DNA of 64,000 nt from Chitinophagales bacterium. Its GTDB lineage: Bacteria; Bacteroidota; Bacteroidia; Chitinophagales; JADIYW01. How positions within the stretch are numbered: position 1 is the stretch's first letter; each line of letters begins with the position of its first letter. Where the stretch lies: the NCBI GenBank assembly GCA_023957235.1, contig JAMLHI010000007.1, positions 124,001-188,000 of the forward strand, read 5' to 3'. The notes under the pieces are model-generated. The model saw only the letters and a list, made by a program, of their open reading frames with translations. It was not told the DNA's origin and searched no databases. Made by a program: the position numbers and the translations under genes. This document shows positions 2,614 to 41,015 of the stretch, in pieces.

Positions 2614-4062
2614 ATGGGAGAAACAACTTTCGCCAATTCTGAATGGCATGAAAGAGAAAAAAAGGCATTAGATATTATCAATATTGCCGGCAAACTATGG
2701 TTGGACAGCTCTGTCGAATTAATTATTTTTAGAAGAAGTATTGTTGATGCAAGAGCAAGTGAAATTCTTAATCACCACGAATATGCTATCAACTACATTC
2801 AAGAACCTTTGACCATCCAGATTTCTTATGACATTTGTGAGGCTATTTCAAAATTGAATGTAGCCCCTTCAAAAATTGATATCGGTGTATTAGGTAAAGA
2901 ATGGTTAAAAGAAGGAAAAGAATTTGAATCAATAGCAGATTTTGTAAAAGAAAGACTTCAAAATTTTATTGGGAAAGACAAAAGAGTTCTTCAACCGAAA
3001 GATGTTGTTCTTTATGGATTTGGACGTATAGGTCGCCTTGCCGCTCGTCTCTTAATTAATCAGACTGGAAAGGGTGAACAATTGAGATTAAAGGCTATCG
3101 TTACAAGAACAAACTCTGATTTAGATATCATTAAAAGGTCTTCATTATTAAGAAAAGACTCAGTTCATGGCAAATTTAGAGGTACTGTTATTGAAGATTT
3201 AGAAAACAAATCTTTGATAATTAATGGCCAACAAGTTAAAATGATTGCAGCTTCTAATCCAGCAGATGTTGATTATACAGAGTATGGCATTCACGATGCT
3301 TTGCTAATTGACAATTCTGGAGTATGGAGAGATGCTGAAGGTTTGAGTCTGCACCTCAAAAGCAAAGGAATTGCTAAAGTGCTTTTGACAGCTCCTGGAA
3401 AAGGAGATATTCCAAATATTGTATATGGTGTCAACCACGAAGAATATGCTCCAAGTTCAAATAATATATTTTCTGCTGCATCTTGTACAACCAATGGAAT
3501 CGCTCCTGTATTGTCAGTCATCAATCAAGTATATGGTATTGAAAGTGGTCATATTGAAAGTGTTCATTCATACACTAATGATCAAAATCTATTAGACAAC
3601 TTCCACAAAAAATTTAGAAGAGGTCGTTCAGCACCTTTAAATATGGTCATCACTGAGACAGGTGCGGCAAAAGCAGTTTCAAAAGTTCTCCCAGTTATTT
3701 CTAATAAATTCACTGGAAATGCTGTACGTGTACCGACTCCAGATGTTTCTTTAGCTATTTTGAACATCAACGTTTCTAAGGAGGTAGAGAGTATAGAATC
3801 TGTCAATCAAGTACTGAAAGAAGCTGCTTCTTTTGGAAAATTAGTAGAACAAATTGACTATTCTACTTCTACTGAATTAGTTTCTACTGACTGTATTGGA
3901 AATAATCACGCCTCAATTGTGGATTCACAAGCAACTTTGTTGGCTCCCAATAAGAAAAGTATTGTACTCTATGTATGGTATGATAATGAATACGGTTATA
4001 CTTGTCAAGTTGTTAGACTGGCAAAATATTTGGCTGAAGTTCAAAGGCTAACTTATTATTAG
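2614..4062 (+). CDS. gap: Glyceraldehyde-3-phosphate dehydrogenase, N-terminally extended form
   Basis: Catalyses the NAD(P)-dependent oxidative phosphorylation of glyceraldehyde 3-phosphate. The protein has 482 residues, against about 335 for classical GAPDH, because of an extra N-terminal domain of about 130 residues. The nucleotide-binding motif GFGRIG is at 135-140. The catalytic cysteine is at about 291 in SCTTNG, and the C-terminal WYDNEYGY motif is present. Classical enzymes usually read SCTTNC; the glycine here is shared by other long-form GAPDHs I recall in Bacteroidota and gammaproteobacteria. A strong terminator follows. Direction (glycolytic or gluconeogenic) is not evident from the sequence. 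Confidence 0.92.
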   Translation: MGETTFANSEWHEREKKALDIINIAGKLWLDSSVELIIFRRSIVDARASEILNHHEYAINYIQEPLTIQISYDICEAISKLNVAPSKIDIGVLGKEWLKEGKEFESIADFVKERLQNFIGKDKRVLQPKDVVLYGFGRIGRLAARLLINQTGKGEQLRLKAIVTRTNSDLDIIKRSSLLRKDSVHGKFRGTVIEDLENKSLIINGQQVKMIAASNPADVDYTEYGIHDALLIDNSGVWRDAEGLSLHLKSKGIAKVLLTAPGKGDIPNIVYGVNHEEYAPSSNNIFSAASCTTNGIAPVLSVINQVYGIESGHIESVHSYTNDQNLLDNFHKKFRRGRSAPLNMVITETGAAKAVSKVLPVISNKFTGNAVRVPTPDVSLAILNINVSKEVESIESVNQVLKEAASFGKLVEQIDYSTSTELVSTDCIGNNHASIVDSQATLLAPNKKSIVLYVWYDNEYGYTCQVVRLAKYLAEVQRLTYY

Positions 4063-4085
4063 TAGAATAATCAAAATTTTATTAT

Positions 4086-4114
4086 AACCACTGCCCTATC
4101 GCAGTGGTTTTTTT
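4086..4114 (+). terminator. Intrinsic terminator after GAPDH
   Basis: Perfect 9-bp stem AACCACTGC (4086-4094) / GCAGTGGTT (4101-4109) with a six-base loop, followed directly by a T run to about 4114. It ends the rpoD-GAPDH transcript. Confidence 0.9.
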
Positions 4115-4239
4115 ATTATATAATTTTTCAATTTGAAGATTTCGGATTGAAGAATAGAGCTTCAATGAGTAAAACGATATTAGTTTGGATGAAATGGTGA
4201 TTTAATTGCTAAAAAAAATGTTTTTTCAGTTGCTTATCT

Positions 4240-4247
4240 TATTTTTG
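4240..4247 (+). promoter_or_regulatory. Candidate -7 box of ffh
   Basis: TATTTTTG matches TAnnTTTG and lies 25 bases before the ffh ATG. No well-placed TTG at about -33 is visible, so this is a partial match. Confidence 0.4.
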
Positions 4248-4272
4248 TGCATTCAATAAAAAAGTAAGAATT

Positions 4273-5595
4273 ATGTTTGAAAATCTGCAAGACCGCTTGG
4301 ATTCAGCGTTTAAAAATCTGAAAGGTCAAGGAAAAATAACAGATCTTAATATCGCAGCAACAGTTAAAGAAATCAGAAGAGCTTTAGTAGATGCGGACGT
4401 AAACTACAAAATTGCAAAAGAATTTACTGATAAGATAAAAGATAAGGCACTAGGTGAAAAAGTAATTAATGCTGTTTCTCCTGGTCAATTGATGGTCAAA
4501 ATCGTATCTGATGAATTGACTGAATTAATGGGTGGCAATGTTGAAGACATCAATATAAAAGGCAATCCAGCAGTAATCCTAATTTCTGGACTTCAAGGTT
4601 CGGGAAAGACAACATTTTCTGGCAAACTCGCCTATCATTTAAAATCCAAATTGAAACGTTCTCCCCTATTAGTGGCATGTGATGTGTACAGACCTGCTGC
4701 GATAGACCAATTGAAAGTATTGGGAGAGCAAGTAAATGTGGAAGTTTATAGTGAAATTGAAAATAAAAATCCTGTTCAAATCGCTCAAAATGCTATCGCT
4801 TATGCTAAGAGTAAAAATTATAATGTAGTTATAGTGGATACTGCAGGTCGTCTAGCAATAGATGAGCTGATGATGGATGAGATTGCAAGGGTAAAACAAG
4901 CAATACAACCACAAGAAACTTTATTTGTTGTAGATTCCATGACAGGCCAAGATGCGGTGAATACAGCAAAGGCATTCAACGATAAAATTAATTTTGATGG
5001 TGTCGTATTGACTAAGTTAGATGGAGATACTCGAGGTGGTGCTGCTTTATCAATAAAATATATTGTTGACAAGCCTATCAAATTTGTAAGTAGAGGTGAA
5101 AAATTAGACACCCTTGATGTATTCTATCCGGAAAGGATGGCTCAGCGTATTTTGGGAATGGGTGATATTGTATCATTTGTTGAGAAAGCGCAAGAGAATT
5201 TTGATGCTAAAGAAGCAGCAAGACTCCAAAAGAAAATTGTAAAAAATCAATTTGATTTTGATGACTTTTTAGGTCAATTGAACCAAATCAGAAAAATGGG
5301 GAATATCAAAGATTTGCTTGGAATGATACCGGGAATGGGCAAAGCATTGAAAGATATAGATATAGATGAAGGAGCTTTTAAAAAAATTGAAGCTATGATA
5401 TCTTCTATGACTCCAACTGAACGGGCTAATCCTGATTTACTGAATGGAAGTAGAAAAAATCGTATCGCAAAAGGTTCCGGAAGTGACATTAAAGATGTCA
5501 ATCAGTTTATCAAACAATTTGATGAAATGAAAAAAATGATGAAAAAGATGAGCACTATGGCTCCTGGAGGAAAAATAAAAATGCCATTTAAATAA
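4273..5595 (+). CDS. ffh: Signal recognition particle protein Ffh (SRP54)
   Basis: The GTPase subunit of the signal recognition particle, which binds signal sequences with 4.5S RNA and targets ribosomes to the membrane. The 440-residue protein has an N-terminal helical bundle and then a G domain with P-loop GLQGSGKT at about 106-113, DTAGRL, and TKLDGDTRGG. The methionine-rich M domain includes GMIPGMGK and a lysine/methionine-rich tail. Length and order are standard. It sits alone between two terminators. The SRP RNA gene was not found in this window. Confidence 0.96.
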   Translation: MFENLQDRLDSAFKNLKGQGKITDLNIAATVKEIRRALVDADVNYKIAKEFTDKIKDKALGEKVINAVSPGQLMVKIVSDELTELMGGNVEDINIKGNPAVILISGLQGSGKTTFSGKLAYHLKSKLKRSPLLVACDVYRPAAIDQLKVLGEQVNVEVYSEIENKNPVQIAQNAIAYAKSKNYNVVIVDTAGRLAIDELMMDEIARVKQAIQPQETLFVVDSMTGQDAVNTAKAFNDKINFDGVVLTKLDGDTRGGAALSIKYIVDKPIKFVSRGEKLDTLDVFYPERMAQRILGMGDIVSFVEKAQENFDAKEAARLQKKIVKNQFDFDDFLGQLNQIRKMGNIKDLLGMIPGMGKALKDIDIDEGAFKKIEAMISSMTPTERANPDLLNGSRKNRIAKGSGSDIKDVNQFIKQFDEMKKMMKKMSTMAPGGKIKMPFK

Positions 5596-8019: not shown

Positions 8020-8826
8020 GTCTTTTAAAACAGATTTGACCATGTTAGTAGCACAAAATGAACCCATAGTTAGAATACTATAAACACTATTTTCTCTTCT
8101 TCCTGTCTTTTTTAAGATAGCTTCGATATTATATCCTTTATTATACAAATCAACTACAGTACCATAAAAATCTTGAAAATCTTGCAGTTTTTTCTGTAAA
8201 TGAAGTTTGCCATTTTTCAACTTAGGATTATGGCTACATAAAAGTGTATCGAAATCAAGATTCGTTAAAAGTTGGAGACTTTCTATCTGTTGCTTCATGC
8301 TTTCAAAATCTGCAAAATATTTGATTTTATCAGCAACATAAAGATCTCCACTAAAAAGCCAACCTTTTTCTTTTGAATAATAAGCAAAATGATCTACAGA
8401 ATGGCCTGGTGTATGAATGGCTTGTAATTGAGTTAACCCTGTATCTATCAGTTGGTTGTTATCGATTTTAAGAACATTTACGCTGTCAACATTGCCCGTT
8501 AGATATTTTGCCAATGGAGATAATTTCATTCCATTTTTCAAAAATCCAACTGTTTGTGCGTGTCCATATACCGGAATTTTAAACAAGTTGCTCAAAAAGC
8601 TGGCATTCCCTGAGTGATCTTCATGATGATGAGTCAAAATAATTTTCTTAACATTATGATTTTCAAGGCTTTTAATAACGATATCTCTACTATGACTTTG
8701 ACCAGTATCTATTAAAGTGTCTCCTAAAAAATAGACATAAACAGTCTGCACATTTTTATTGAATCTATAGACAGAAAATCTATAACCATACAATCCTTCT
8801 ATTTGCAAACTCTTGACTCCTATCAT
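7996..8826 (-). CDS. MBL-fold metallo-hydrolase
   Basis: A 276-residue metallo-beta-lactamase-fold hydrolase. The metal motif HHHEDH is at 66-71 (HxHxDH pattern), with a further His in TPGHSVDH at about 142 and the bridging Asp in FSGDLYV at about 161. A fourth His lies in LCSHNPK. The C-terminal extension resembles the winged-helix-like tail of glyoxalase-II/LACTB2-type relatives. The substrate is unknown. The gene converges on the zinc-peptidase gene and diverges from accC across 175 bases. Confidence 0.85.
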   Translation of the reverse strand: MIGVKSLQIEGLYGYRFSVYRFNKNVQTVYVYFLGDTLIDTGQSHSRDIVIKSLENHNVKKIILTHHHEDHSGNASFLSNLFKIPVYGHAQTVGFLKNGMKLSPLAKYLTGNVDSVNVLKIDNNQLIDTGLTQLQAIHTPGHSVDHFAYYSKEKGWLFSGDLYVADKIKYFADFESMKQQIESLQLLTNLDFDTLLCSHNPKLKNGKLHLQKKLQDFQDFYGTVVDLYNKGYNIEAILKKTGRRENSVYSILTMGSFCATNMVKSVLKDEGLILKK

Positions 8827-9001
8827 TATTTCATTTCATTTAAATACAATATTACTTATTGAACAGAACTCTAACAAATTCATTAGATGGTTTTTTGATA
8901 AACATGATGATTATCTAAAGAAGATTTCAGTTTATAAAGTAGAATATTATTCAATCTTTATCATGAAAAGACTATTTTTACAGTTTTACTATAATTAGCA
9001 G

Positions 9002-35191: not shown

Positions 35192-35339
35192 CTCGTCAAA
35201 CTTAACTTGTTTCTGCATTTCAAAAGTAGATACAAATCAAGCTCTTCATCAGATTCAGAACAAAAGACACGATTTTATATTAAGCAATTTTACCTATATA
35301 AATATTCATTATTAATATCTATTTGATAACTATTATTAT

Positions 35340-35347
35340 TATATTTG
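35340..35347 (+). promoter_or_regulatory. -7 box of the gene at 35371
   Basis: TATATTTG matches TAnnTTTG and lies 23 bases before the chosen ATG at 35371. It lies downstream of the alternative start at 35323, supporting the shorter gene. A TTTG at 35322-35325 is rather close (14 bases). Confidence 0.4.
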
Positions 35348-35370
35348 AATTAACATCAAAATCCAATACT

Positions 35371-35928
35371 ATGAAAAATCTTATTATTCTAATATTAGCA
35401 GTAGCAACCATCTTCTTAACATGGAAAACTTATTTTTCAAATAGTCAATGTTGCTCATCATCTTCAAAAAATGAAAAAGATAATACAGTTGGGTTAAATA
35501 GTACAAAGGATGACATTATTAACATGAATTATTTTAAAGGTAAAACTGACAAAGAAATGGGCATCAACTTATATGATGTAGTCAGCAACTTTAGAACCTT
35601 TACATTGCCTAAAATAAAAGATAAAGATAATGTAGATTTACCTAGAGATAGAACAGATGGTCTTGTTACAAAATCTGTATCATACGACCGAGTTAAACTA
35701 CTTCAGTTGTTAAATGCGTCCAATTCTCAAAATGTCATATTTCATTTTGGATCACTTGATAGACTTTCTGCAAATAAATATGGTTATTATTATAAATTAG
35801 ACAAAAAAAGTGTTGTCCAAAAACCAATTCTAATCCTTGAAATTGATACCCTTAATAAAGATAAATCTGGACCAACAAAAGTTTTCGCAATTGGCAAAAT
35901 TTGCCCTCCACCAAATAGTTGCCCTTAA
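35371..35928 (+). CDS. Hypothetical membrane-anchored or exported protein
   Basis: I do not recognise this 185-residue protein. An N-terminal hydrophobic segment (about 3-20) is followed by a Cys pair and serine run (QCCSSSSK), a charged linker and a soluble domain rich in beta-like hydrophobic strands (NVIFHFGSL, PILILEID, KVFAIGKI). It ends with ICPPPNSCP, giving another Cys pair. The start at 35371 gives a normal signal or anchor sequence; an open frame to 35323 adds 16 residues ahead of it. It converges on the TPR gene with a nine-base gap. Confidence 0.65.
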   Translation: MKNLIILILAVATIFLTWKTYFSNSQCCSSSSKNEKDNTVGLNSTKDDIINMNYFKGKTDKEMGINLYDVVSNFRTFTLPKIKDKDNVDLPRDRTDGLVTKSVSYDRVKLLQLLNASNSQNVIFHFGSLDRLSANKYGYYYKLDKKSVVQKPILILEIDTLNKDKSGPTKVFAIGKICPPPNSCP

Positions 35929-35937
35929 TCTTTTCAG

Positions 35938-37764
35938 CTAAGTTATCGGAGTAGATGAATTTGATGATTCTTTAACTTCTTCTGATGAAAGATGAGAATG
36001 TTCAGGCTTCAAGAATTGAAAAATACTTTTGAAGCTGAATTTCTTTTTATCTTCCAACATTTTTTTCTTTTTCAAATATTCTATAACAACTTCTTCTATA
36101 TAATGATGAAATGGCAGTAGAAAAGAAATCACTACTATTTTAATCAACCAAATCTTTAATGGAGATCCATGTGTAAGATGATGAATTTTTGCATCTAGTA
36201 CTAAAATGATAAATTCAAAAAGAAAAATAAATGCAAAAAATCCAATTATTTCTATCAATCTTAATGAATATTTCTTTCTACCACTCATAAAAAGTAAAAT
36301 GGTAAAGACTAAGCATATAAAAACAGTAATACCCATGTATTGAAGATTATGAATACGTTTCTCCTCTAATTCAATTTTTAGTTTCTCTGCTTCTATCCTT
36401 TTATTCTCATTTTCTATTTCCAATGAAGAAAACTCTTTCTCCTTCATAATCAAATTAAGAGTATCCTTATAATGATCAGCTAGTTCTGCATACATCAATG
36501 CAGTTTGATAATCCCCATTCTCTGCACTTAATTTTTTAATCTTATTACTAAAGTCAATTTTCTGGTTGATATCATTGGTTAACACACTCAAGTCAAATGC
36601 TTGATGATATAATTCCAATGCTTTCTTCTTATCTTTTAATTGATTATACAACATAGAATATTCAGCTAAAAAATTCAACTTTGCATTATTATCATAAGAG
36701 TCATTTGACAAATAATATGATTGAGCTTCATCAAAATATTTTTTTGCTGAATCTAATTCATCGGCATATAAATAGATTTCTCCTATTGTCCAATTATTAT
36801 TAAATGGCCCTCTATTCTTATAATAAGTCTGAATAATGGAATTTTCATTCAGATACTTCAGTGATTCTTTGCTGTTTCCATTGATGATAAGATATGAGAA
36901 TATATAAATTTGAGCTTTCTTCTGTAGGCTAAGATTCTTTTCCTTTTTTGCTAATGCCAAAGCTTTATTCAGATAAGAAATACCATCATTATAATCATAG
37001 CTTGCACCTATAGCAATATAATCCGCAATCATTCCATTATAGTTCTTATTATTTTTATTTAGCTGAAGGCTTTTAAAATAATAACTTTTTGCTTCTTGGC
37101 TTTTGCCAATACTTTGATAAAGGCTTGCCAATGAATGATAAACTGTTGATATCAAACTTTCATTTGCTGCTCTCTGAGCAATATCATGAGCATTTGTGAA
37201 GGTTTTAAAAGCAAGAAGCATCTCTTTTTGCTCTTGGTAAATTTTACCAAGTTGCAAGGCAGTAATTACTTTGCAAGAGTCGTCTTTCAGATTAAGTGCA
37301 GTTGAAAATGCTAAATTTGCATATTTCAGTGCATTATTAATTTCACCCTTTTTCCTATACACTTCTGAGATACTAGCATTACCATAAGCTACGTATTCTG
37401 GGCGATTATACATTTTTGCATATTCAATTCCTTGAAGTATATACGAAATAAAATCTTCTTTCTTAATAAGAGTGGTATTTTCAGAAATCTCAAATGAAGT
37501 ATTAAAAAAGTATGTTTCTAGAATAATCTCTTTATTCTGGGTAGATTCAGCAAGTTGGAGTGCTTTTTTGAAAACGCTATCCGCTTTATTAAAATCTTCT
37601 AAGATATAATAAGCTTTGCTTTCTTCTAATAATGATAATAATTCTTTATTGTTTTCAAATATACCATTCAGATTTTCCTTATTTTCATGTTCAGCATATA
37701 CTCTTTTCATAAAGAGAAAAGCAATTAGAAACAAAAGAATGAATCTATACAAGGTTGTATGCAT
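35938..37764 (-). CDS. TPR-repeat sensor-like membrane protein without an output domain
   Basis: A 608-residue protein. A signal peptide (about 1-24) leads into about ten TPR-like helical pairs (for example DFNKADSVFKKALQLAES and INNALKYANLAFSTAL). A charged coiled coil lies at about 440-472, then three hydrophobic segments at about 477-493, 503-523 and 538-552, and a basic/serine-rich tail. Bacteroidota often place TPR repeats, a coiled coil and one membrane segment before a histidine kinase or HTH output. Here the output is missing and extra membrane segments replace it. The gene diverges from a lipoprotein gene across 46 bases. Confidence 0.75.
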   Translation of the reverse strand: MHTTLYRFILLFLIAFLFMKRVYAEHENKENLNGIFENNKELLSLLEESKAYYILEDFNKADSVFKKALQLAESTQNKEIILETYFFNTSFEISENTTLIKKEDFISYILQGIEYAKMYNRPEYVAYGNASISEVYRKKGEINNALKYANLAFSTALNLKDDSCKVITALQLGKIYQEQKEMLLAFKTFTNAHDIAQRAANESLISTVYHSLASLYQSIGKSQEAKSYYFKSLQLNKNNKNYNGMIADYIAIGASYDYNDGISYLNKALALAKKEKNLSLQKKAQIYIFSYLIINGNSKESLKYLNENSIIQTYYKNRGPFNNNWTIGEIYLYADELDSAKKYFDEAQSYYLSNDSYDNNAKLNFLAEYSMLYNQLKDKKKALELYHQAFDLSVLTNDINQKIDFSNKIKKLSAENGDYQTALMYAELADHYKDTLNLIMKEKEFSSLEIENENKRIEAEKLKIELEEKRIHNLQYMGITVFICLVFTILLFMSGRKKYSLRLIEIIGFFAFIFLFEFIILVLDAKIHHLTHGSPLKIWLIKIVVISFLLPFHHYIEEVVIEYLKKKKMLEDKKKFSFKSIFQFLKPEHSHLSSEEVKESSNSSTPIT

Positions 37765-37810
37765 ATAATGAGGCGTTCATATCAACTAATTTAATCAAAC
37801 ATTTCATACC

Positions 37811-38173
37811 ATGAAAGAAAATCAACTAAAAATAAGATATAAAAACAGGAACTCTATTTTTTTGAAGTTATATATTTTATTCATTTCAATATTGCTTCTA
37901 TCTTGTACATCTACAAATCAGATTTTCTATATCTCTTCAAAGACACGACCTTGTACAGGTGTCGGAGAAATGGAATGCATGATGATAAAAAAAGATACTA
38001 ATCAGACAGAATGGGAAAATTTTTACTCACAAATTGAGGGCTTTAGCTACGAAAAAGGATATGAATACAAATTATTAATTAAAGAAGAAAAAATTGAAAA
38101 CCCTCCTGCAGATGGTTCTAATATCCGCTATATTTTGGTTAAAATCCTTAGCAAAAATGAAGTAATTCAATAA
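37811..38173 (+). CDS. DUF4377 lipoprotein
   Basis: A 120-residue protein with a basic N-terminus, hydrophobic signal and lipobox cysteine in LLLSCTST. The remainder fits the DUF4377 pattern as I recall it: CTGVGEMECMMIK, then W...FYSQIEGFSYEKGYEY, then NPPADGS and a LVKILSK end. DUF4377 is often found joined to META/HslJ-type domains in exported stress proteins; its function is unknown. The signal segment begins about 18 residues in, so a later start is possible, though no internal Met precedes it. Confidence 0.75.
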   Translation: MKENQLKIRYKNRNSIFLKLYILFISILLLSCTSTNQIFYISSKTRPCTGVGEMECMMIKKDTNQTEWENFYSQIEGFSYEKGYEYKLLIKEEKIENPPADGSNIRYILVKILSKNEVIQ

Positions 38174-38411: not shown

Positions 38412-38519
38412 ATGAGGAAAAATATTTTCACAGATTACAACAAAATTCACAAATCTCGTTTTAATAACAAAAAAACATTCATTTCTCCTCCCTATAAAAT
38501 CATAAGCTCAACAATATGA
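38412..38519 (+). CDS. Possible upstream peptide coupled to the CAP gene
   Basis: A 35-codon frame (start MRKNIFTDYNKIHKS, basic) whose TGA stop overlaps the ATG of the next gene as ATGA. That arrangement is typical of translational coupling. There is no family match and no visible promoter; chance is quite possible in AT-rich DNA. Confidence 0.25.
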   Translation: MRKNIFTDYNKIHKSRFNNKKTFISPPYKIISSTI

Positions 38520-39148
38520 AATATCTTTTTTGCCTATTGTTTTTCTCTTGTCATAACTATTTATTTGCTCAAAATACTCAAGAATACCTTCATTTTTTTC
38601 CTGAATCAATTATTCAGAAAGCGAAGTCTATAAAAAAAAGTTTGGCTTATACCGAACAAGAACAAGAAGTAATTGTATTAACCAATCTTGTCAGAATGGA
38701 TCCTAAAAATTTCATTTTATTTTTAGACAATTATATTCAACAAACAGGATTTTGCAATTCCAATAATCCATATCTAATTTCTCTAAAAAACACACTAAAT
38801 AAACAAAAAGCAAATCCAAATGCACTCATTACTGTTATGACCTTAAAAAAGACAGCTTTATCACATGCTATATACGCAAAAAACACAGGAGAAATTGGTC
38901 ATCAATTTATCGAAAATCGGTATAATATTGCCCAAGAAGAATTAGATCATAACACATTTTCTGAGAATTGTTCATATCAATACAGTACAGTCATAGGTGC
39001 CTTTTTAGGATTGCTTATAGACGATGGTATAAGAGGTTTGGGGCATCGCAAAACTATTTTAGACTCCCGATACACTCATATAGGTGTAGGGATTGCTCAA
39101 TATCAAGACGGATCATTTATTTTAGTGCAAAATTTTAGTGCAAAATAA
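38516..39148 (+). CDS. CAP/SCP-domain exported protein
   Basis: A 210-residue protein with a signal peptide (about 1-19, ending LFAQ) and a CAP (cysteine-rich secretory/antigen 5/PR-1) domain. Visible family features are TNLVRMDPKNF, LKKTALSHAIYAKNTGEIGH, SENCSYQY, and GHRKTILDSRYTHIGVGIA, giving the two cavity histidines and the glutamate. Bacterial CAP proteins are exported and mostly of unknown role, some binding sterols or lipids. It is the second exported protein in this cluster. Confidence 0.85.
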   Translation: MKYLFCLLFFSCHNYLFAQNTQEYLHFFPESIIQKAKSIKKSLAYTEQEQEVIVLTNLVRMDPKNFILFLDNYIQQTGFCNSNNPYLISLKNTLNKQKANPNALITVMTLKKTALSHAIYAKNTGEIGHQFIENRYNIAQEELDHNTFSENCSYQYSTVIGAFLGLLIDDGIRGLGHRKTILDSRYTHIGVGIAQYQDGSFILVQNFSAK

Positions 39149-39241: not shown

Positions 39242-40597
39242 ATGTACAAACTAAATCAATTTGTTGATTTACAAAATGATATATATTCTCAAGCTGTTCT
39301 TGAGCTGAAGAATGGATATAAAAAAACAAATTGGATTCATCTCATATTCCCTAGGCTTATTTTAGACAAAAGTGACGAAAATATATTTTTTCATTTAAAA
39401 AACTCACAAGAAGCTAGAGTTTTCATGGCTCATTCCATTCTAGGTTCAAGACTTAAAGAATGCCTCAATATTTTGCTAAACATAGAGAATAAGACCGTTT
39501 TAAACATTTTCGGTTCTCCTGATTTTCTGCATTTTAAATCTAGCATGACTTTATTTGCTATGATAAATGAGGATGAAAATTCGATATTTCACAAAATATT
39601 AGACAAGTATTATTCTGGCAAAATGGATATAAAAACTATCCAAATCTTAAAAGAGGAAACAGAAACACCTATCTCTGGGCACTTAGCTTGGCTTCAAGAA
39701 CTGCAGAATAATCATAATGATTATAAGAAAATCAATGAGTTGCGTATAACTATTTATAAAGACACTCAATTGATTAGCAATAATGGCAAATATCAACTGG
39801 AGAAGAAAACAATATTTTTTCAAAAGCCAGAAGAGATAGCCAAGTCAGTGAAATATTATCTTCAAGCAAAGAAAATACAAACACTTGTAAAAAATTATTC
39901 TACTCAGATTTTTGTTATACCTTCTAATGAAATAGAACAAGCTAATATACTTGAGAGTACGGGTTGTCATCCGACTATTCATGTAGAAACTAACAGAATA
40001 TTTCCAGGTAACGAAGCAAATGAAGGGCAAGAAAGTATTGAAGCCGACTTATTTAGAAGAAGTAATATTACCCCTGCATTATATCAATTTACTGATGATG
40101 CAGATATTTTTCAGATTGAAAGAAACCCAGATTTCTCTTATCCTTTTCCTAAAGATTTCACTGGTGGAATATACTCACCAAATATTTCAATTTTCAGAGG
40201 TAAGGAAATCAATGGCTATGGATTATTAAAAAATCCATTTATGTTAGATTTTATTTTTACTTCACATTCTGAAAATCCAGAAATCGAACTCGTACAAGGA
40301 GAATGGCGGTTTTCTATAAAAAGTAAAGATATTATTTTAGAGAAGATTCGAACAGTGTTGAGAATAGCATTTATCCATCAACACGACAGTATTATCTTCG
40401 GGATAAATCATTCAGAAAGAAATAGTTATCCAACGAAACATCTTGCAGAGCTTTATGGGCAAGTTTTATTTGAGTCAGAGTTTAAAGATGTATTTAAACT
40501 TATTATTTTCTCAATAGCATCTCCGACAATTTTTCAGAATAGTATCAAAGTGTTAGATGGTATTTATTCCGATTTTTATACAACCTTTTATCAATAG
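39242..40597 (+). CDS. DUF1810 domain fused to a degraded PARG-like domain
   Basis: A 451-residue protein. Residues 1-138 match the DUF1810 pattern (LNQFVDLQNDIYSQAVLELK, IFPRL, MAHSILGSRLKECL, IFGSPDFLHFKSSMTLFA, LDKYYSGKMD). Residues about 165-435 follow the microbial PARG (TIGR02452) plan, with RITIYKDTQ, a central LFRRSN and late KIRTVLRIA and FKLIIFSIAS. The signature GGG-x-QEE is lost: where PGGG is expected the sequence reads PGNE (255-258). Where QEE is expected it reads IEA (266-268), so one Glu remains and the second is Ala. The late GAWGCGAF-like loop reads FGINHSERN. It may bind ADP-ribose without cleaving it. Confidence 0.7.
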   Translation: MYKLNQFVDLQNDIYSQAVLELKNGYKKTNWIHLIFPRLILDKSDENIFFHLKNSQEARVFMAHSILGSRLKECLNILLNIENKTVLNIFGSPDFLHFKSSMTLFAMINEDENSIFHKILDKYYSGKMDIKTIQILKEETETPISGHLAWLQELQNNHNDYKKINELRITIYKDTQLISNNGKYQLEKKTIFFQKPEEIAKSVKYYLQAKKIQTLVKNYSTQIFVIPSNEIEQANILESTGCHPTIHVETNRIFPGNEANEGQESIEADLFRRSNITPALYQFTDDADIFQIERNPDFSYPFPKDFTGGIYSPNISIFRGKEINGYGLLKNPFMLDFIFTSHSENPEIELVQGEWRFSIKSKDIILEKIRTVLRIAFIHQHDSIIFGINHSERNSYPTKHLAELYGQVLFESEFKDVFKLIIFSIASPTIFQNSIKVLDGIYSDFYTTFYQ

Positions 40598-40607
40598 TTA
40601 AATATAA

Positions 40608-41000
40608 CTAGGGATTTAAAAAATCTCCAGATTCTATCAATTGGGCATTTCTAGGTAATTCATAATTATACCAGTATATCCAACAATTTAATATTCCATT
40701 TTCAGTATTTACCTTTACTTTTTCTCTTCGATATTCGTAAGGAGGATTGCCTACGCCTATGCCTTCATATTCATCCAATTCTAAAAGGATATCTTCGTTT
40801 TCCAATAAATATATATCTCCTACCACAATATCTTGTTCATTCCCTTCTTTGATAATTGCTGGATACCAATCTATTTTATATAATTTAGCTTGAGTGACAT
40901 ACCCCATCCTGACCAAGCTACATTGAGTTGACAGTTTATTTGCCATCTTAAGTTCAGTGTCCATGCGAAGACTACCATAAGTAAATAAATAGGTTTGCAT
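40608..41000 (-). CDS. Gamma-glutamylcyclotransferase-like (AIG2) protein
   Basis: A 130-residue protein starting MQTYLFTYGSLRMD, the YGSL motif that opens the gamma-glutamylcyclotransferase/AIG2 fold. A later ELDEYEGIG supplies the likely catalytic Glu. The family acts on gamma-glutamyl amines or peptides or has unknown substrates. I chose the ATG at 41000; an in-frame TTG at 41009 adds three residues. It converges on the DUF1810-PARG gene and lies 68 bases after valS, beyond the valS terminator. Confidence 0.85.
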   Translation of the reverse strand: MQTYLFTYGSLRMDTELKMANKLSTQCSLVRMGYVTQAKLYKIDWYPAIIKEGNEQDIVVGDIYLLENEDILLELDEYEGIGVGNPPYEYRREKVKVNTENGILNCWIYWYNYELPRNAQLIESGDFLNP

Positions 41001-41015
41001 AATTGACAACTAAAA

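Follow-up and report, generated by a model that had tools for sequence, protein, structure and literature searches.

The 64,000-nucleotide stretch of Chitinophagales DNA analysed here (the window) encodes a protein in which a DUF1810 domain is joined to a microbial PARG-type domain and in which both halves have lost the hallmark residues of their families. The fusion is genuine and conserved, is degenerate in both halves and represents a variant of known families. We regard it as probable that it is a double pseudo-enzyme kept under purifying selection, which very probably neither hydrolyses nor reads ADP-ribose, and we propose that it acts as a folded binding scaffold. The fusion gene and its parts are as follows:

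39242..40597, + strand: fusion gene, an open reading frame of 451 aa with an ATG start and no in-frame stop
39242..39655, + strand: DUF1810 domain, residues 1-138 (Pfam, match to PDB 2jek, model superposition)
39656..39721, + strand: inter-domain segment, residues 139-160 (pLDDT of the full-length model low around residues 141-150)
39722..40591, + strand: PARG-type (macrodomain-like) domain, about residues 161-450 (Pfam, profile match to 3sig, predicted structure)

The original prediction, made from the sequence alone, was that of a DUF1810-PARG fusion with a lost PARG signature, and this observation is confirmed. The N-terminal DUF1810 domain, predicted at residues 1-138, was recovered by Pfam at residues 2-136 (E 1.7e-37, 128.8 bits for a cut-off of 25). 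The C-terminal half, predicted to be PARG-like at about residues 165-435, matched PARG_cat_microb (PF10021) over residues 174-319 with 29.1 bits (E 1.5e-6, cut-off 23.5), a weak sequence match that is backed by structure prediction. Its C-terminal limit lies further on, at about residue 450. The NCBIfam profile TIGR02452, which had been suggested as a check of residues 160-440, did not match the window protein; the same search does match the intact relatives L017 and L049.

The GGGx6-8QEE signature and the G[AV][FY] loop are ligand and catalytic elements of PARG (PMC7050489). Both have been rewritten in the window protein:

39980..40045, + strand: degenerate catalytic loop, residues 247-268, reading HVETNRIFPGNEANEGQESIEA for L-N-x-A-x4-P-G-G-G-x6-8-QEE (alignment)
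40397..40435, + strand: degenerate diphosphate loop, residues 386-398, reading FGINHSERNSYPT for L-[SG]-A-F-G-C-G-A-F-x-N-P-P (alignment)

We compared these loops with 95 other PARG domains, viral and non-viral, the viral members having been collected with motif-bearing patterns. The non-viral members came from profile searches, a search with the window protein and a scan of genome contigs with patterns admitting degenerate members, and this set, collected without requiring an intact motif, was intact throughout. The changes predicted at the signature, GGG to GNE and QEE to IEA, were borne out by the alignment: PGGG has become P255-G-N-E258 and AQEE has become S265-I-E-A268. All three letters of QEE are invariant in the other domains (95/95 each), against I-E-A in the window protein and T-E-A in its orthologue from a congener. 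Positions 256 and 257 are likewise glycine in 95/95 domains and read G, N in the window protein and R, N in the congener, giving PGNE and PRNE, respectively. The asparagine that precedes the loop (N248), found in 94/95 domains, is replaced by V in the window protein and by Q in the congener. A268 aligns with the site mutated in the E115A structure of Thermomonospora curvata PARG (3sij; alignment and PDB entry title). E267, the first glutamate of QEE, is kept in both proteins, so that a weak or altered activity is possible. The late Gly-rich loop, also predicted to be changed, has lost its GCG[AV]F: A-x-GCG-AF-x-NPP has become I-N-H-S-E-R-N-S-Y-P-T, with H-S-E-R-N in place of G-C-G-A-F and E-R-N (in NHSERNSYPT) where G[AV][FY] would stand.

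The losses are concentrated in these loops. Among 33 PARG columns conserved family-wide, 17 are changed in the window protein, 15/19 in the two ligand loops versus 2/14 elsewhere (Fisher p 3.6e-4), and the two changes outside the loops, F405Y and A424S, are both conservative. The subfamily-specific DDHN…HNPEGN tail is absent as well. With the microbial PARGs (PF10021, DUF2263; TIGR02452; structures 3sig and Deinococcus radiodurans 5zda) the window protein shares the fold and the overall plan, including Gly262, E267, R272, Y311, F423 and the FRRSN and GGIYSP segments; unlike them, it lacks the signature with the Asn before it, as well as the diphosphate loop.

A PDB search with the sequence of the window protein alone did not yield a PARG match for the second half. 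When a profile was built from this half and its relatives, it matched T. curvata PARG (3sig) with E 2.4e-66 and D. radiodurans PARG with E 2.6e-63. The second half, modelled with AlphaFold2 together with 33 relatives (pLDDT 91, pTM 0.91), superposed on T. curvata PARG 3sih over 256 residues at 2.2 A with Z 28.6, while ordinary macrodomains ranked next with Z of about 14; since the models are guided by the intact relatives with which they were aligned, these values speak for fold compatibility and do not in themselves prove stability with the rewritten loops. The models thus support a PARG fold kept despite the lost signature, in agreement with the prediction that the domain is probably still folded. 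In the full-length model (pLDDT 90, pTM 0.68) each domain is predicted with confidence, but the way in which the two are oriented to each other is unsure.

The first half matched Rv1873 (PDB 2jek) in a sequence search (E 2.4e-21), and the model of residues 1-139 superposed on this structure over 138 residues at 1.6 A (Z 22.9). With the DUF1810 family (PF08837) the window protein shares the fold and the greater part of the core that is conserved. The near-invariant HWxW..FPQ..GLG segment of the family is, in contrast, found neither in the window protein nor in the congener, where it reads NWIHLVFPR..-LN:

39329..39367, + strand: degenerate DUF1810 signature, residues 30-42, reading NWIHLIFPR..-LD for HWMW[YF]IFPQ..GLG (alignment)

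In other DUF1810 domains W33 is tryptophan in 83/83 cases, H30 histidine in 81/83 and Q38 glutamine in 78/83. Besides these residues, the nearly invariant G40, G42, R6 and K97 have been lost, and A10 and Y50 are changed too. A second DUF1810 protein of the host genome (L002) retains H30, W33, Q38, G40, G42, R6 and K97. Neither the degeneration of this half nor the linkages of DUF1810 to ADP-ribosylhydrolases described below had been part of the original prediction.

An orthologue of the fusion gene was found in the congener G012, on a contig of the Chitinophagales MAG ACE_NR_BACT7 (L033). It encodes 451 aa, is 70% identical over its full length, carries the same losses and has the same neighbours, which rules out sequencing error as their cause; a third congener, G011, is devoid of the fusion gene. 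Between the two orthologues dN is 0.206 and dS about 1.9, giving a dN/dS of about 0.11, an approximate ratio given that dS is near saturation. Taken by part, dN and dS are 0.15 and 2.8 for DUF1810 and 0.23 and 1.7 for PARG, and the neighbouring GGACT gene gave similar values for the same species pair (dN 0.163, dS 2.7). Purifying selection on the window protein indicates that it has a function. The ligand loops are 60% identical between the orthologues versus 69% for the remaining PARG domain; this slightly lower conservation argues against a maintained pocket. In the PARG tree the stem branch leading to the degenerate pair measures 2.29, for a median end branch of 0.47, and in the DUF1810 tree it measures 1.75; the branches that follow the stem are short in both trees (0.06-0.27). 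A long stem followed by slow change fits a burst in both halves on one branch and subsequent constraint, as may be expected after a change of role, and with two degenerate sequences in hand relaxed and positive selection are inseparable.

The immediate neighbours of the fusion gene are:

38516..39148, + strand: secreted-looking CAP-domain gene, 93 bp upstream of the fusion gene (Pfam CAP, E 3e-8)
40608..41009, - strand: GGACT gene, downstream and convergent, followed by ValS (Pfam; conserved neighbours)

The CAP gene has the same order and strand in G012. GGACT and ValS are probably unrelated to the function of the fusion gene. Three genes at 35323-38173, between an aldolase-like gene and the CAP gene, include a TPR protein and a DUF4377 gene; in G012, where the aldolase-like and CAP genes are conserved, the three do not stand between them. 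DUF4377 (37811-38173) was considered as an operon partner, as it also adjoins the intact PARG L017, but its absence from this interval in the congener led us to take this as a coincidence. A scan of the locus for promoters and terminators gave scores no better than shuffled sequences. At Pfam level the fusion is the only PARG of the host genome, and Macro, ARH and NADAR genes are absent; this makes a dead subunit regulating an active PARG paralogue unlikely.

The PARG half belongs to an FRRSN-motif subfamily present in Bacteroidota, Planctomycetota, Spirochaetota and others and on large viral contigs. Its closest homologues are standalone PARGs such as L017 and L016 from the same order (33-34% identity over about 285 aa), which share the subfamily inserts but, unlike the window protein, have QEE and the diphosphate loop in place and are not joined to DUF1810. 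Scans of genomes and viral contigs with the single window protein yielded nothing, and the phage and plasmid collections contained DUF1810 or PARG relatives and no full fusion. One match of the class search (L007) fell inside a histidine-kinase-like ORF and was dismissed as chance. Additional terminal domains without a Pfam match were observed on several intact FRRSN-PARGs: an N-terminal extension of about 130 aa common to L038, L043, L046 and L048, another extra domain apparently common to L039, L041 and L056, and further N- or C-terminal domains in L045, L053 and L054. These are possibly other partner or immunity-type domains. On viral contigs, many of them over 300 kb, FRRSN-type and related PARGs are common, and DUF1810 occurs on 38 viral contigs (loci L134-L195 and L096-L133 for the two families together). 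In Bacillus phage G one PARG match spans two annotated genes, gp113 and gp114. Canonical PARGs of the class appear to be clustered with other ADP-ribose genes: at L013:603-3051(-) the genes for NADAR, Macro, PARG and KptA follow one another, PARG accompanies KptA and a phosphatase-like gene in L012 and L032, and it accompanies an ADP-ribosylglycohydrolase in L008.

DUF1810 was found joined or next to ADP-ribosylhydrolases in other genomes as well:

L049 (Prevotellaceae MAG), 3660-5291: PARG-DUF1810 fusion, domain order opposite to the window protein, both signatures essentially intact
L055 (Planctomycetaceae MAG), 308-1714: DUF1810 44 bp after an intact FRRSN-type PARG; the locus contains frameshifts
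L057 (Spirochaetales MAG), 8034-8975: DUF1810 start overlapping the stop of an intact FRRSN-type PARG (ATGA); the locus contains frameshifts
L068 (genome of the same class), 694-1899, - strand: DUF1810 fused to an ADP-ribosylglycohydrolase (PF03747)
L096 (4.2 kb contig of a viral collection), 290-1597, + strand: DUF1810 fused to an ADP-ribosylglycohydrolase (PF03747)

Among about two dozen intact cellular FRRSN-PARGs, only L049 carries DUF1810 at its C-terminus. Although it unites the same two domain families as the window protein, its DUF1810 groups in the tree with the ARH-fused DUF1810 domains (99/99) and away from that of the window protein, indicating that the two PARG-DUF1810 fusions are independent. 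The hydrolases of L068 and L096 score well as ARH, a fold unrelated to PARG; these proteins nevertheless resemble the window protein in joining DUF1810 to a domain of an ADP-ribosylhydrolase family. At the observed frequency of DUF1810, a rough model predicts about 0.001 cases of PARG-DUF1810 adjacency by chance (P about 4e-10). The independent PARG fusion, the adjacency to PARG in two other phyla and the ARH fusions together suggest that DUF1810 is probably an ADP-ribose-system domain. Most DUF1810 genes, however, stand alone, and four standalone copies on plasmids have no annotated ADP-ribose neighbour, so that the linkage is not general: the domain is linked, but not tied, to ADP-ribosylhydrolases. 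A DUF1810 protein at L026:1495-2400(+) is extended at its C-terminus by about 150 residues that match no Pfam family.

The history that we propose begins with an FRRSN-subfamily PARG that was an active ADP-ribosylhydrolase and became fused with a DUF1810 domain. The hallmark residues of both domains would have been lost on one ancestral branch within the genus, after which the protein would have been kept by purifying selection as a folded scaffold, binding a protein or nucleic-acid partner through the surfaces that are still conserved. Candidate surfaces are the FRRSN helix, the YPFPKDF-GGIY-PN-IFRGKEINGY insert, EKIRTVLRIA and segment 85-125 of DUF1810. Repeated loss of macrodomain activity has precedents in other lineages (PMC10221186). 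The original prediction had envisaged either an ADP-ribose reader or a regulated pseudo-enzyme, and of these the pseudo-enzyme is retained in our best reading. It is rather unlikely that the PARG domain, having lost hydrolysis, has remained able to bind ADP-ribose or some related nucleotide. Non-catalytic macrodomains are indeed common (PMC10221186), the domain keeps its fold, and the E115A structure of T. curvata PARG, in which the same Glu is changed to Ala, is folded. But the losses extend beyond the catalytic Glu to the conserved Asn, the GGG loop and the diphosphate loop GCG[AV]F, and the residues that replaced both loops differ between the orthologues.

This variability also bears on a second possibility, that of an enzyme with changed chemistry or substrate using the kept E267 and the new loop residues. 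The conservation of E267 between the orthologues would agree with it, as would one burst of change followed by strong constraint, which fits neofunctionalisation, but the new loop residues are no more conserved than the scaffold and the DUF1810 signature has been lost as well, so that we consider it unlikely. We also doubt that the protein is an immunity or anti-phage factor that blocks an ADP-ribosylating toxin by binding it directly. Bacterial PARGs that are active can give protection from RhsP2, a toxin that ADP-ribosylates RNA (PMC11833690), which makes an immunity role plausible for the ancestor, and both FRRSN-PARGs and DUF1810 are frequent on viral contigs, the latter also occurring on plasmids. 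Against this, no toxin gene was recognised among the neighbours, which are housekeeping, CAP and TPR genes, the PADLOC defence models gave no match at E 0.01, and a patchy accessory distribution is not specific; a search of PHROGs with the window protein likewise gave no match. Finally, the loss of both motifs could mean that the gene is a pseudogene in decay, derived from a fusion enzyme that was active. This is contradicted by an open frame of equal length in two species and by a dN/dS similar to that of GGACT, and is very improbable. We therefore favour the double pseudo-enzyme acting as a scaffold.

The physiological roles of bacterial PARGs are largely unknown (PMC11833690), and no account of DUF1810 function was found in the PMC literature searched. 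The window protein, in which both halves have been knocked out naturally while selection maintains the gene, may be useful to separate catalytic from binding roles of PARG. We tentatively suggest, as a possibility somewhat short of an even chance, that DUF1810 takes part in ADP-ribose metabolism in a way so far unrecognised, binding or processing ADP-ribosyl substrates and repeatedly teamed with ADP-ribosylhydrolases of two unrelated folds, and that in the lineage of the window protein both domains of this module were inactivated together and given a new use as a regulator or scaffold without enzyme activity. The larger value of the find is the lead that places DUF1810 in the ADP-ribose system: joined to PARG in both orders, following PARG in two phyla and fused to ARH, the domain offers a testable starting point.
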